From a virus, in the IMG/VR virus record IMGVR_UViG_3300044678_002197, positions 1-27,519 of that record: a stretch of 27,519 nucleotides of DNA. One strand, given 5' to 3'. Positions 356-16,077 of this stretch are shown here, in pieces. A program made the translations under genes and the position numbers. The notes below the pieces were generated by a model, which saw only the letters and a list, made by a program, of their open reading frames with translations, did not search any database and was not told the DNA's origin. Position 1 is the stretch's first letter. Every line of letters starts with the position of its first letter.

Positions 356-383
356 AATGTACCGACGTTCAGTTGCTCGTCAA
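356..383 (-). promoter_or_regulatory. sigma70-type promoter candidate, proximal, for gene 31-327
   Basis: On the minus strand TTGACG (383-378) and TACATT (361-356) are separated by 16 bp. The spacer carries ACTGAACG, a one-base-expanded version of the operator octamer seen at the other early promoters. Confidence 0.55.
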
Positions 384-420
384 GCGTTCACTTTCAGGAT
401 TTTTTCAGGCGTGGCGTTAG

Positions 421-450
421 CGTCAGTTAGGCTAGCGGATAGCGTCAGTT
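421..450 (+). repeat. operator-like direct repeat CGTCAGTTAG x2, 22 bp apart
   Basis: CGTCAGTTAG occurs at 421-430 and again at 443-452, exactly 22 bp (about two helical turns) apart. The same octamer recurs at 938-945 and as an inverted pair at 1294-1314, always in the control regions of the leftward small genes. This spacing and placement are what repeated repressor sites look like; the protein that binds is not identified. Confidence 0.7.
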
Positions 451-456
451 AGTCAA
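429..456 (-). promoter_or_regulatory. sigma70-type promoter candidate, distal, with two operator repeats
   Basis: On the minus strand TTGACT (456-451) and TAGCCT (434-429) are 16 bp apart. The -35 hexamer overlaps the stop codon of the upstream 453-587 gene. One operator octamer lies inside the spacer and a second directly after the -10. The -10 is weak (TAGCCT), so this call rests mainly on the shared architecture. Confidence 0.45.
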
Positions 457-587
457 CCGAGAATACCGGCCAGTGTGAGCACGAGCGTGATCGCATCGTG
501 GACCAACCGTGCCAGCGTCGAGTCGCTGCCGAGCTCCTGGCCCAGGCGGACCAGCACTAGGGCTCGGATCGTGGCGTCGTAGTTCAT
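453..587 (-). CDS. very small hypothetical protein (44 aa)
   Basis: The family is not recognised. The start at 587-585 is fixed by a perfect AAGGAGG eight bases upstream, the best ribosome binding site in this region; a longer frame back to 656 lacks one. The C-terminal half (residues about 30-44) is hydrophobic (AITLVLTLAGILG), so it could be membrane-associated or form an amphipathic helix. It lies downstream of the 670-873 gene and is probably cotranscribed with it. A short protein with such a good ribosome binding site in a phage early region is typical of host-modulating or regulatory peptides, but no function can be assigned. Confidence 0.6.
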   Translation of the reverse strand: MNYDATIRALVLVRLGQELGSDSTLARLVHDAITLVLTLAGILG

Positions 588-615
588 CGTCGTGCCCTCC
601 TTGGCGTGAAAGGAT

Positions 616-658
616 GCCACCCGTTTCGCGGCTGTCGGCAGGCCGGGTGGCCCCACCC
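616..658. other. two mutually exclusive hairpins between two early genes
   Basis: GCCACCC (616-622) can pair with GGGTGGC (645-651), or the latter can pair with the adjacent CCACCC (653-658). The two pairings share the same middle arm. They lie in the 82-bp leader between the stop of the gene at 670 and the start at 587, so they could act as an attenuator or partial terminator. There is no clear U tract. Confidence 0.3.
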
Positions 659-669
659 TTGTGCGGCGG

Positions 670-873
670 TTAGCGGTAGTAGGTCACGCGGCTGCCGACG
701 GCGTTGATCGTGCGGCGTGTGCCGTCTGCGAACACTTGGAAAAGCAGGGTCGAACCCTTCACGCCCTCGATGATGCACTGGCGAATGATGCCAAGTTCAC
801 GGGCGACGTTCACGCCAACGCCAAGCTCTTCGGCAACCCGGTACTTCCGATTGTTCAGCGTGATCGTTTCCAT
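670..873 (-). CDS. small hypothetical protein (67 aa)
   Basis: The family is unknown. The protein starts METITLNNRKYRVAEELG and has alternating hydrophobic residues near the end (STLLFQVFADG, INAVGSRVTYYR) that suggest a small beta-containing fold. The start at 873 has GGGAGACGAG upstream at a workable distance. It is the first gene after a promoter (954-926) whose spacer holds an operator repeat, so it is probably expressed early and under the same control as its neighbours. No catalytic or DNA-binding motif is visible. Confidence 0.6.
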   Translation of the reverse strand: METITLNNRKYRVAEELGVGVNVARELGIIRQCIIEGVKGSTLLFQVFADGTRRTINAVGSRVTYYR

Positions 874-917
874 TGTCTCGTCTCCCGGCTGGCGTTGCGT
901 CAGGTCTCATGTGCCCG

Positions 918-945
918 ACTGACGTACTCTAGGCTATCGTCAGTT
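918..945 (+). repeat. operator-like inverted repeat ACTGACG / CGTCAGT
   Basis: ACTGACG at 918-924 and CGTCAGT at 938-944 form an inverted repeat with a 13-bp centre, around the -10 of the promoter at 926-954. It belongs to the same motif family as 421-450 and 1294-1314. Confidence 0.65.
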
Positions 946-954
946 AGGCGTCAA
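926..954 (-). promoter_or_regulatory. sigma70-type promoter candidate for gene 670-873
   Basis: On the minus strand TTGACG (954-949) and TAGAGT (931-926) are 17 bp apart. The octamer AACTGACG (945-938) lies in the spacer and a further ACTGACG in opposite orientation (918-924) lies just past the -10, so a bound protein would cover the polymerase site. Confidence 0.6.
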
Positions 955-999
955 GGGCATGAATCGGATTTTCTGGTGGGCGTTTTCTCCGTGGAAACG

Positions 1000-1272
1000 C
1001 TACTTCTTCCGCTTTGCCTTCTTGCGGCTGGCGGCTGGACGCTTGGCGAGGTGCTGTTTCCCGAGCGACCTAGTTGTCAGGGCATCCCGAGCTTCGGTGG
1101 CGGCGGCCTTTGGAATGAGCCAGACACGCTGGCCGATCCTCCTGGCACCAGGCAGAAGCCCACGCCCTAGCAGGGTGCGGACCCAGGCTTCAGAGCAGCC
1201 CATGTGCTCCACTGCCTCGAGCACCGTGAGGTATTCGCCGCCATCTAGTTTTTGCGGTGTCATTGCAACCAT
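1000..1272 (-). CDS. helix-turn-helix DNA-binding protein, probable excisionase or early regulator (90 aa)
   Basis: Residues about 14-55 (YLTVLEAVEHMGCSEAWV followed by LLGRGLLPGARRIGQRVWLIP) match the pattern of the MerR/excisionase-like winged HTH domain: a helix-turn-helix then a short wing with an arginine and WLIP. The last 30 residues are very basic (RKKAKRKK), fit for non-specific DNA contact. It is divergent from the integrase gene, the usual place of a recombination directionality factor. The same protein could also be the factor that binds the nearby operator repeats. The predicted promoter places the transcript start at or next to the ATG at 1272, so the message may be leaderless, as for lambda cI from PRM; an alternative start is the ATG at 1263. 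Confidence 0.8.
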   Translation of the reverse strand: MVAMTPQKLDGGEYLTVLEAVEHMGCSEAWVRTLLGRGLLPGARRIGQRVWLIPKAAATEARDALTTRSLGKQHLAKRPAASRKKAKRKK

Positions 1273-1279
1273 CCCATGA

Positions 1280-1307
1280 AATGTACCGCCGATCGTCAGT
1301 TGGTCAA
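1280..1307 (-). promoter_or_regulatory. sigma70-type promoter candidate for the HTH gene
   Basis: On the minus strand TTGACC (1307-1302) and TACATT (1285-1280) are 16 bp apart. The -35 is the centre of the palindromic operator at 1294-1314. The -10 ends only seven bases before the ATG at 1272. Confidence 0.6.
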
Positions 1308-1314
1308 ACTGACG
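1294..1314. repeat. palindromic operator-like site CGTCAGTT-N5-AACTGACG
   Basis: Perfect 8-bp arms (1294-1301 and 1307-1314) flank a 5-bp centre. It is the most symmetric member of the repeat family and covers the -35 of the HTH-gene promoter. It is a good candidate for an autoregulatory operator. Confidence 0.75.
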
Positions 1315-1459: not shown

Positions 1460-2398
1460 ATGACACTAAGAGAGCTGCTGATTGACCGCGTGGCGGAACT
1501 GAAAAACTACGAAGCCCGCACCACGGAGATGTATTGCCAGACCCTAGACCGCTTCCGCGATTTCTTGGGGCACGAGCCAACGGTGGACGACCTTGACGAC
1601 CTCGTGGTCAGCAAGTTCCTCCGCTGGCGAGCCAAGACGGTTCACGACCCGCGCCGAGGGCTCATCACCCCTGCCTCACTCGCCAAGGATTCCGCCCACA
1701 TCCGGGCCCTGTGGACGTGGCTGGCGAAGAAGCGGTGGAAGAAGGGCGACGGCGAACTGCTGGAGTTCCCCGATTACGCCCGCCCCAAGGTTCCCAAGCC
1801 CATACCGCGGGCCTACAAGGCCGATGAACTGCGGGCCTTGCTGGCAGCAGCCCGGCACCGAAAGGGGCTTGTAGCGGGCAGGCCGGCGGCCTGGTACTGG
1901 ACGACGAAACTGTGGGCCATGTTCGTCACCGGGGAGCGGATCGGCGCGGTCATGCGGCTGCGGTGGGGGCAGGTGGACCTCGAAGGCTGCACGGTCACCT
2001 TCTTGGCAGACACGCGCAAAGGCCGCAGGGAGTCGCTGACAGCCCCGATACCGCAGGCCCTGGCCAAGATGCTGGCCGCCCACAAGGGGGCTCCTGGCGA
2101 GCTCGTGTGGCCTTGGCTTGATGATCGGCAAATGTTGTCGTGCTACGCCTCGCTCAAGGTGCTCTGCCGCACGGCGGGCGTGGAATACAAGGCGTTCCAC
2201 TCTATCCGCAAATCGACGGCGTCCTACTTGAAAAAGGCGGGGATCTCGGCCAAGGGGCAACTAGGCCACGCTTCGGAGGAGATGGCCGAAACCCACTACT
2301 ATGACGAGGACATCGTGGGAAGGGAAAGCAACCTGGACTACCTGCCCGACATCACGGAAAAGCCGCCCGCCAAAGACGACGACCGGCCAGCCGCCTGA
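1460..2398 (+). CDS. int: tyrosine recombinase, phage integrase (312 aa)
   Basis: This enzyme joins phage and host DNA at attachment sites. Residues 1-90 form the SAM-like core-binding domain. The catalytic domain covers about 115-295 with the family residues in order: Arg160 (VTGERIGAVMRL), Lys187 in the beta hairpin, His247-x-x-Arg250 (FHSIRKS), His270 (LGHAS), and the nucleophile Tyr280 or Tyr281 (THYYDED). Length is usual for short phage integrases; no arm-binding domain is obvious before residue 1. The ATG at 1460 has GGGAGAG six bases before it. It is the only convincing plus-strand gene, convergent with the late genes and divergent from the HTH gene. Confidence 0.95.
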   Translation: MTLRELLIDRVAELKNYEARTTEMYCQTLDRFRDFLGHEPTVDDLDDLVVSKFLRWRAKTVHDPRRGLITPASLAKDSAHIRALWTWLAKKRWKKGDGELLEFPDYARPKVPKPIPRAYKADELRALLAAARHRKGLVAGRPAAWYWTTKLWAMFVTGERIGAVMRLRWGQVDLEGCTVTFLADTRKGRRESLTAPIPQALAKMLAAHKGAPGELVWPWLDDRQMLSCYASLKVLCRTAGVEYKAFHSIRKSTASYLKKAGISAKGQLGHASEEMAETHYYDEDIVGRESNLDYLPDITEKPPAKDDDRPAA

Positions 2399-13572: not shown

Positions 13573-16077
13573 CTATGCGGCTACAACGCCGTCGTCTCCG
13601 GGCCGCGTGTTTTCCTCGATGGCCTTGAGCGCGTCGAGTTGTTTCTGCGCAAGACTTGAGCCAAACCCAAGCCCCCCAAGCGCAGCCGATGAAAATGTTC
13701 CAGCCACCTCGGCGGTGCTCGTGGCGGCATCGCCGCCAGCGGCCCCAGCACCACTGCGAATCTTTTCGCTCGGAGACCCGCCCATCGAGCCTGTCGATTT
13801 GCTGATTCGCTCTTGGGCATCTTCGAGGGCTGTCTCCAATGCTGCGGTCTGCGTGGACGTGAGCCGACCGCTTGATGACAGGGCGTCGAACTCCTCGTAC
13901 ATGCCCCGCAGGGAGTCCATCGAGGTCGCCCCCTCGATGTCCTTCATGAGCCTTGTGAACTGGTCGTTGCGGACCCGCTGCTCGCGCTTGCCACGGGATT
14001 TGCTTGTGACATCCGCTTCCGCCGCCTCGGTGTCGGAGCGCCGCTGATCAGCCCGGCGGCGGTTTTCGGCCTCGCGCTGGTCAACGGTTGCTTGCGTGTT
14101 CTCGTCAACGGCCTTTTTCCGGTCTTCCAAATCCTTGTTCGCCTGATCGTTCTCGCGGCGAGCCTGCTCGGTGCGGCCCTCAACGCCTGGTCTATCAAGC
14201 TCACGCTGGCGGCTGCGAGCGGTCATCTCGCTGTCGACCTTCTCGTTTTCCTTTTTGAGATCAAATCCTTTTCGGAAAAACGATTGGACGTAGTTCCACG
14301 ATTTGCGGATGCCGGCCTCCAAGTTGTCCCACGCTGCCATCACACCGTTGATCACGTTGTCGAACGCGCCTTGCAGGTAGGCCCCAAACGTGTTGAATGA
14401 GTTGGAAACGCCAACCCAAATCGAGTCCCACGCCTTGTAGATTTCCGCCCCGAGGATCGTGAATGCGTTTTGGAACGTAGAAATCCACGGGTCGACGTAG
14501 CTCATCAGAGCCTCGACGCCGCGGAGCCAGCCGGCCTTGAGGCCCGCCCACAGAACATCCATCGCCCCGGCGAGGTCGCCGTCAGCGATGGCTTCGTAGA
14601 TGCCGTTGAAGGTCGTGCTTGCCGTTGAAGCCAGATCGGAAAAAACGACCGACGCGTCGGATGCCAAAGACCGGAACGAATCACCAACAACCCCGGCCGC
14701 ATCGGCAACCCCATCCAGCGCGCCGGCGAACGCCCCACGGATTTGCGGCCCAAGCGCTACTACCGCAGTCACTCCCGCGACTAGCAGACCGATCGGGCTG
14801 AGTAGAGCCCCGACAACTGACGCTACAAGACCAAACCCAGCCAGCAGGCCACCCATTGAAAAGCTCGCCAACTGAATGGCAGATCCAAGCGCGACCAGTG
14901 CCAGCCCGACGCCAGTGAAGATGGCGACGCCCTTCGCGGCCGAGACAACCAGCGCTTCGTTTTCCTTGACGAACTTGGTCAGGCCAGTGGCGATGTTCTC
15001 AACGCCTTTCAGCAGGCTTTGCAGGCCAGGGGCCAAGGCGTCGCCAACGGCAAGCGCCGTCCCCTCTACCGCCGACAAGGCAATTCGCAGTGCCCCGCCA
15101 AGACCAGCGTCCATCTCCTTGGCGGCCTTTGCGGCCGTGCCTTCGGCATCCCGCAGGCTGTCGGCCAGGTCGCGCACGCCGTCGGCGCTCTGCGAAAGCA
15201 CATTGGCACTCGTGATGCCAAGCAATCCGAACGCCTTGGCCATCTTTGCCGTTCGCTCGGCCACCGGCATGTTTTTTGTGGCTTCGTTGATCTCATCCAG
15301 AATGTCGACGAGCGGTTTGAGGTTGCCCGCGGCGTCCGTGTTCGTCACGCCGAAAAGGTCTTGAAGCTCTTTCCCGGCCCCAGCAGAAATGACCGACAAG
15401 CGTCGAAGGGCCGTGCCGGCCTCGCTCCCCTGGATGCCGACGTTGCCGAGCACGCCAAGGATCGCGGTCGTGTCCTCAAGGCTCATGCCCAGCGACTTTG
15501 CCACAGGGCCGGCGTATTTCAACGATTCGCCAAGCCCTTCGACCGTGTTAAACGTGCTGTTGGCGGCCTTCGTCAGCACGTCGGCAGCACGGCCAGCCTC
15601 CGTTGCCCCCAGCCCGAACTGCCGCAGCGTTGCCGCCATGATCCCGGCAGACAGCGCGGCATCGGTTCCAGTTGCCCTCGCGAGATCAAGGACGGCCCCC
15701 GTCATGGCGTTGATCTCGTCGGGCTTGAAACCCGCGCGGCCAAGCTCGGTCATGAGGTTGGCAACCTGCACGGCGGTGAACGAAGTCGTGGCCCCGAGCT
15801 CGCGGGCCTTGTCGTTCAACTTTTGAAGTTGCGCCCCGCTTGCACCGGAGACGGCAGCCGTCGCCCGAATGGCATCGTCAAACTGGGCGAACTGCCGCAT
15901 TGCCAAGCCGATCGGAGCCGCGATAGCAACGCCGATGGCGGTCATCCGCGTGCCGAGGTTGGTCATCGACTGACCAATCTTGCCGATCGACTTGTTAAGG
16001 TCGGTCAGCGCCTTGAAGAGCTTCCGCGGGTCGGCCCCGATCTCGACAAATACCTGACCGCCGCGGACCTTGCTCAT
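13573..16077 (-). CDS. phage tail tape measure protein (834 aa)
   Basis: The protein sets the tail length and is ejected with the DNA. The N-terminal 330 residues match the TP901/PhageMin_Tail type: FVEIGADPRKLFKAL at the start, a small amphipathic helix array, then AVSGASGAQLQKLNDKARELGATTSFTAVQVA and VLGNVGIQGSEAGTALRRL. Hydrophobic segments lie at about 375-450, and a strongly charged helical region at about 600-700 (rich in Arg, Glu, Asp, Gln). By the usual ruler of 0.15 nm per residue it would give a tail of about 125 nm. ATG 16077 overlaps the stop of the chaperone fusion as ATGA. Confidence 0.93.
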   Translation of the reverse strand: MSKVRGGQVFVEIGADPRKLFKALTDLNKSIGKIGQSMTNLGTRMTAIGVAIAAPIGLAMRQFAQFDDAIRATAAVSGASGAQLQKLNDKARELGATTSFTAVQVANLMTELGRAGFKPDEINAMTGAVLDLARATGTDAALSAGIMAATLRQFGLGATEAGRAADVLTKAANSTFNTVEGLGESLKYAGPVAKSLGMSLEDTTAILGVLGNVGIQGSEAGTALRRLSVISAGAGKELQDLFGVTNTDAAGNLKPLVDILDEINEATKNMPVAERTAKMAKAFGLLGITSANVLSQSADGVRDLADSLRDAEGTAAKAAKEMDAGLGGALRIALSAVEGTALAVGDALAPGLQSLLKGVENIATGLTKFVKENEALVVSAAKGVAIFTGVGLALVALGSAIQLASFSMGGLLAGFGLVASVVGALLSPIGLLVAGVTAVVALGPQIRGAFAGALDGVADAAGVVGDSFRSLASDASVVFSDLASTASTTFNGIYEAIADGDLAGAMDVLWAGLKAGWLRGVEALMSYVDPWISTFQNAFTILGAEIYKAWDSIWVGVSNSFNTFGAYLQGAFDNVINGVMAAWDNLEAGIRKSWNYVQSFFRKGFDLKKENEKVDSEMTARSRQRELDRPGVEGRTEQARRENDQANKDLEDRKKAVDENTQATVDQREAENRRRADQRRSDTEAAEADVTSKSRGKREQRVRNDQFTRLMKDIEGATSMDSLRGMYEEFDALSSSGRLTSTQTAALETALEDAQERISKSTGSMGGSPSEKIRSGAGAAGGDAATSTAEVAGTFSSAALGGLGFGSSLAQKQLDALKAIEENTRPGDDGVVAA

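Follow-up and report, generated by a model that had tools for sequence, protein, structure and literature searches.

The window analyzed here is the whole of a linear virus record of 27.5 kb. Near its start, a gene for a 90-aa winged-helix protein faces away from a tyrosine integrase gene and is accompanied by four leftward promoters (P1 to P4), copies of a candidate operator, and small early genes (Table 1). The product of the winged-helix gene (hereafter the 1000-1272 protein) matched the Pfam family HTH_17 (E 1.2e-6) as well as excisionase and HTH families of PHROG. Its AF2 model is a winged helix with a mean pLDDT of 74, in which the recognition helix comprises residues 28-37 (SEAWVRTLLG corresponds to residues 27-36) and the part past residue 63 consists only of a short helix and a basic tail. 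The nearest solved structures by sequence profile and by fold were Pukovnik Xis (4j2n) and MerR-type domains. These matches were weak (E 0.025 by sequence, Foldseek E 0.05), and the shared fold is by itself no proof of function.

Table 1. Features of the locus, with positions and strands as in the window.
Feature	Position	Strand	Basis
90-aa winged-helix protein gene (HTH_17, excisionase-like), proposed regulator	1000-1272	-	Pfam, PHROG, AF2, covariation with the operator
Tyrosine integrase, divergent from the regulator gene	1460-2398	+	Pfam Phage_integrase 1.6e-9
Regulator gene promoter P1; -35 1302-1307, -10 1280-1285, spacer 16	1280-1307	-	Promoter pattern; counterpart in relatives
Operator AACTGACG in P1	1294-1301	-	Exact octamer and TTGAC-octamer pattern
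Inverted operator copy, 5' of and overlapping the P1 -35	1307-1314	+	Exact octamer; not kept in most relatives
Promoter P2; -35 949-954, -10 926-931, spacer 17	926-954	-	Promoter pattern; 79 viral contigs
Operator AACTGACG in P2	938-945	-	Exact octamer and TTGAC-octamer pattern
P2 transcript 5' leader; hairpin GTCGGG 914-919 / CCTGAC 899-904	898-925	-	Compensatory stem changes in relatives
67-aa gene, first of the hypervariable P2 slot	670-873	-	No Pfam or PHROG family
Promoter P3; -35 451-456, -10 429-434, spacer 16	429-456	-	Promoter pattern; doublet in 45 viral contigs
P3 operator copy A, in the -35/-10 spacer	443-450	-	Exact octamer and TTGAC-octamer pattern
P3 operator copy B, immediately past the -10 and 22 bp from copy A	421-428	-	Exact octamer; spacing 22 in 28/28 distinct doublets
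Promoter P4; LexA-box-like dyad GAACN4GTAC (358-371), without octamer operator	356-383	-	Promoter pattern and conserved dyad
Early gene for a 104-aa product, following P3 and P4	31-345	-	

Promoters and operator copies in the window

The octamer CGTCAGTT was found on the plus strand at 421-428, 443-450, 938-945, and 1294-1301 and, inverted, on the minus strand at 1307-1314. Thus, all the copies named in the original prediction (at 421, 443, and 938 and as an inverted pair at 1294-1314) are present. Counted over the whole window, the exact octamer occurs six times versus 0.79 expected, and none of 100 shuffles reached six; the single further copy lies at 14815-14822 on the minus strand, within the tape-measure ORF. 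When one mismatch was allowed, the excess was weak (29 versus 20 expected, with 4 of 100 shuffles reaching 29), and near copies are thus no evidence by themselves; the exact copies alone count. The pattern TTGACN{0,4}AACTGACG occurs three times, always in the early-promoter region, as compared to 0.00 expected from shuffles.

The promoter pattern TTGACN{15,18}TANNNT has exactly four matches in the 27.5 kb (0.63 expected), at 1280-1307, 926-954, 429-456, and 356-383, and each of them points leftward (minus strand). They correspond to the -10 hexamers that had been proposed at 1285-1280, 931-926, 434-429, and 361-356. The octamer operator is carried by three of them, P1 to P3, and is missing from P4. 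The claim that four promoters contain the motif was therefore upheld for P1, P2, and P3, while the degenerate fourth (356-383) falls outside the operator set. The near copies at 364-374 and within 898-924 were rejected as operators. The former is part of a different conserved dyad that belongs to P4, and the latter (898-905 and 917-924) fall mostly within a hairpin with which the P2 transcript begins. The stem of this hairpin differs between phages through compensatory changes, and its loop, TGAGA, is largely conserved; a search of Rfam with the region that includes it returned no family. Past the -10 of P2 there is an inverted CGTCAG in the window, as in a few other phages of its operator class, which may be a minor extra half-site.

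Recurrence of the layout in related phages

A search with the integrase retrieved 71 viral contigs and a search with the HTH protein 40, and the set was enlarged by two more searches, for which divergent HTH proteins were chosen without regard to their operators. All of these were made without the operator pattern; another part of the set was retrieved by a degenerate operator pattern that allowed all classes. Pattern searches detected the second promoter in 79 viral contigs and the doublet of the third promoter in 45. The layout recurs in more than 100 metagenomic phage contigs, and about 25 of the contigs retrieved with the integrase and the HTH protein have these promoters at corresponding positions. 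One precedes the HTH gene, the next typically lies ~45 nt past that gene, the third mostly carries two operator copies, and the fourth follows at a greater distance. In 39 of 57 testable integrase relatives, the divergent neighbor of the integrase is a regulator of this HTH family; five contigs with the same kind of integrase (L028, L054, L056, L008, and L035) have other HTH proteins at the place of the regulator. The region and its integrase had no match among 50,697 phage records, and alignment of the integrase against bacterial genomes gave no relative. The promoter pattern also matched a single short phage contig that had been placed in a Proteobacteria MAG, which is too little to name a host.

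Spacers in the relatives measure 16-18 bp, with a mode of 17 for single sites and 16 for doublets. The position of the operator relative to the -35 box floats by 1-4 nt, which sets it apart from the promoter consensus. The operator cores fall into the classes TGACG, TACCG, and TAACG plus rarer ones, the fuller forms being AASTGACG, AACTACCG, AACTAACG, and AAGTAACG, again with rarer ones. Within a genome, P2 and P3 were of the same class in 34 of 35 cases versus 15.7 by random pairing (the maximum of 2000 shuffles was 25). The two copies of the P3 doublet agreed with each other in 28/28 cases and were 22 bp apart in 28/28.

P4 shows a different kind of conservation. In the relatives, a dyad close to GAAC-N4-GTAC lies over its -10 whatever the class of P2 and P3. 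The form across relatives is [GA][AGT]AC-N4-GTAYA, with the right half coinciding with the -10. It resembles a LexA box of the GAACN4GTTC kind and may be one; the operator of P1 to P3 does not look like one. The motif TGNACN4GTACA has only two sites in the window (0.08 expected), at 358-371 in P4 and at 1400-1413 in the integrase leader, the second of which may be part of the att core instead of a LexA-like box. In many relatives, the early operon includes a gene for a LexA DNA-binding domain that stands alone, measures 78-81 aa, and lacks an S24 peptidase (for example, L218:13259-13504), and comparison by eye of the P4 dyad with the helix of this domain revealed no clear covariation.

The interval between P2 and P3 appears as a variable small-gene slot behind a conserved promoter, operator, and leader hairpin, and its cargo may possibly serve counter-defence. 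For the first gene after P2 there were 53 distinct ORFs of ~40-130 aa, which fell into 33 clusters with no detectable similarity to each other. When ten of these cargo proteins were sampled and compared to Pfam and PHROG, one had a match (LPD29, phrog_15549) and nine had none. The 670-873 product is 96% identical to a copy in a phage of another operator class, which suggests that cargo and regulator are exchanged separately. Just upstream of P3, a small conserved ORF (453-587, minus strand) of ~45 aa with an RLGQELG motif occurs in most relatives and matches no Pfam or PHROG family.

Covariation of the recognition helix and the operator

We compared the operator classes with the sequences of the HTH proteins, excluding the partial or frameshifted L155, L193, and L246 and the doubtful L362. 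Arginine at residue 36 was accompanied by C before the CG of the operator in 31/31 proteins, and any other residue by another base in 71/72. The exception is the divergent L006, which has glutamine at residue 36 with TTCCG; it was left out of the tree and counted as the single exception. After clustering at 90% identity, residue 36 ranked first among all columns for the base before CG (MI/H 1.00), with residue 28 second, while residue 33 ranked first for the base preceding that one; the exceptions to this second rule are L062, L253/L254, and L131. All three residues lie in the recognition helix.

When the helix was masked for tree building, the residue required seven changes and so did the base. 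Three independent switches fall on well-supported branches and all agree, with a sign test on those alone giving a p of 0.25. Because independent switches are few, the strength of the argument lies in the joint picture. In L298, the helix YIRRLLR goes with TGCCG as compared to YIRRLLI with TAACG, and in L183/L138 an Arg-type protein stands among Gly-type relatives with the operator switched as expected. Outside the data set, L054 and L056 have a helix ending in arginine and spacers that hold CTACCG, and L028 has a different HTH protein and a different shared spacer element. P1 followed the same trend more loosely, as TACCG-type half-sites were present in 25 of the 28 phages with Arg-type proteins and T[AG]ACG-type half-sites in 41/59 of the others. 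This looseness would fit a weaker, self-limiting site.

Because the site changes in step with one or two residues of the protein across ~100 relatives, it seems that regulator and operators have undergone a joint diversification. The form of the operator tracks the helix of the 1000-1272 protein and not the LexA-type protein, which argues that the 1000-1272 protein is very probably the regulator that reads the operator, as the original prediction had offered as one option. Its broader idea of a regulon under one regulator was supported, with the fourth promoter falling outside the set. These comparisons strongly support the view that three early promoters share one operator, set in the spacer between their hexamers, which answers to one element-encoded regulator, and the word repressor expresses what the promoter geometry suggests.

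The candidate regulator and related systems

Together, these data suggest that the 1000-1272 protein is a sequence-specific regulator of a small temperate-phage regulon, acting through the sites of P1 to P3 and most likely repressing them; from sequence comparison, we put the probability of this reading at about 0.8. The protein would bind a short site (core TGACG here) in the spacer of P1, from which it is itself transcribed, the same site in P2, the promoter of the variable small-gene slot, and two copies 22 bp apart around the -10 of P3. We infer that this binding is direct. As the spacers are 16-18 bp and the boxes near consensus, bound protein would most likely block RNA polymerase, and repression is thus the likely mode of action. 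P2 and P3 would be repressed, and synthesis of the protein itself would be limited at P1, whose sites vary more. Such a circuit could serve lysogeny or early shut-off, possibly together with excision.

The same protein might instead activate from between the -35 and -10 in the manner of MerR, since its fold resembles MerR DNA-binding domains and the sites sit in the spacer. MerR activation requires long spacers of ~19-20 bp, whereas those found here measure 16-18 bp, and a protein of 90 aa with a basic tail is too short to accommodate the coiled coil and sensor of MerR; the model shows no C-terminal coiled coil or effector domain. We consider activation unlikely. It is also improbable that the sites serve excision or assembly of the att complex, with their location in promoters being secondary, even though the protein has much of an Xis about it: it is small, basic, and winged-helix, adjoins a divergent tyrosine integrase, and has excisionases as its closest matches in sequence and fold. 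At att, excisionases bind direct repeats spaced 10-11 bp (PMC7498355), while the sites described here form doublets 22 bp apart (in 28/28) or are single or inverted (P1 and P2), and they lie in promoters at variable distances of up to ~1.6 kb from the integrase side.

A further possibility is that another phage protein reads the operator, most plausibly the stand-alone 78-81 aa LexA-type domain of the relatives' early operon, which lies outside the window. Many of these phages have it, and its sequence marks it as DNA-binding (Pfam LexA_DNA_bind 2.4e-17). Copies of this domain are 97-99% identical across different operator classes (for example, L238 with AA and L236 with AC), whereas the HTH proteins there are ~45% identical. 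With up to 98.7% identity between phages of different class, the LexA domain does not appear to read this operator, and we rejected it as the reader of P1 to P3; the operator is also unlike a LexA box, whereas P4 resembles one. P1 to P3 thus do not behave as a LexA/SOS regulon, as their classes differ among near-identical LexA-domain proteins, and reading by another phage protein seems very improbable. A conserved HTH_3 protein beside the switch, as in the CI/S24 arrangement of lambda, was not seen in 36 records: two of these had an HTH_3 match above the cut-off, neither of them conserved, and the records are fragments, so a CI-type repressor may lie elsewhere. Last, the octamer could be merely a host promoter consensus or the product of chance, given that every site sits inside a -35/-10 pair. 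This is hardly credible, as the site floats relative to the boxes and is missing from P4 of these genomes, the core at P2 varies together with that at P3 and with the helix of the HTH protein, and the shuffle counts exclude chance.

A wider picture can be sketched, which we regard as tentative and rather doubtful as a whole. The integrase-linked winged-helix protein would be the immunity-type repressor of a large phage group, reading its operator by a near one-residue/one-base code (arginine at residue 36 specifying C and other residues mostly A before CG, and residue 33 the preceding base) that would divide the phages into separate immunity groups. The same operator would control a hypervariable slot of small early genes, perhaps for counter-defence, with a second, LexA-type control at P4. 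The analysis identifies a likely regulator for an uncultured phage group and points to a simple helix-operator specificity code with ~100 natural variants, a natural set of candidate orthogonal regulator-operator pairs. Since the promoters and the cargo slot are marked, small early genes, possibly including counter-defence genes, could be collected systematically.

Among characterized systems, Apl of phage 186 and Cox of P2-like phages are small winged-helix/HTH proteins linked to tyrosine integrases that also regulate early promoters (PMC7498355). The 1000-1272 protein is like them in being encoded by the first gene of the early side and in its proposed repression of promoters from sites in or beside them. 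However, Apl and Cox bind with low specificity to direct repeats that are spaced by one helical turn (10-11 bp) (PMC7498355), in contrast to the single sites, dyads, or 22-bp doublet with sharp class-specific cores found here. The geometry of P3 is the same as that of the operator of the phage P2 C repressor, a 99-aa protein, in which two 8-bp direct repeats 22 bp apart flank the -10 of the early promoter (PMC4752584); in P3, the copies at 443-450 and 421-428 flank the -10 at 429-434. Unlike the C operator, the same site is here also used singly, in promoters P1 and P2. The profile search against solved structures did not list C, an absence that is compatible with homology.

The joint divergence of protein and sites recalls Cluster A mycobacteriophages, in which the immunity repressor and many asymmetric sites diverge together into specificity groups (PMC6550527, PMC9283540). 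Those repressors have two domains, use up to ~30 sites along the genome, and also stop elongation, whereas the sites described here are confined to three promoters. Aca repressors are small HTH proteins proposed to shut down the early promoter of small variable phage genes (PMC9410906, PMC9410881). In contrast to the Aca arrangement, in which the regulator gene lies within the anti-CRISPR operon, the regulator gene here has its own promoter, P1, and stands outside the cargo operon of P2, and no anti-CRISPR gene was identified. The stand-alone LexA domain of the relatives is like gp6 of phage GIL01, in which a truncated LexA homologue is an activator (PMC6182141). In L218, the gene for this domain has a homologue of the DNA polymerase III beta clamp beside it (L218:13765-14943), and the early operon of this one relative also contains a second tyrosine-recombinase-like gene (L218:11030-11911).
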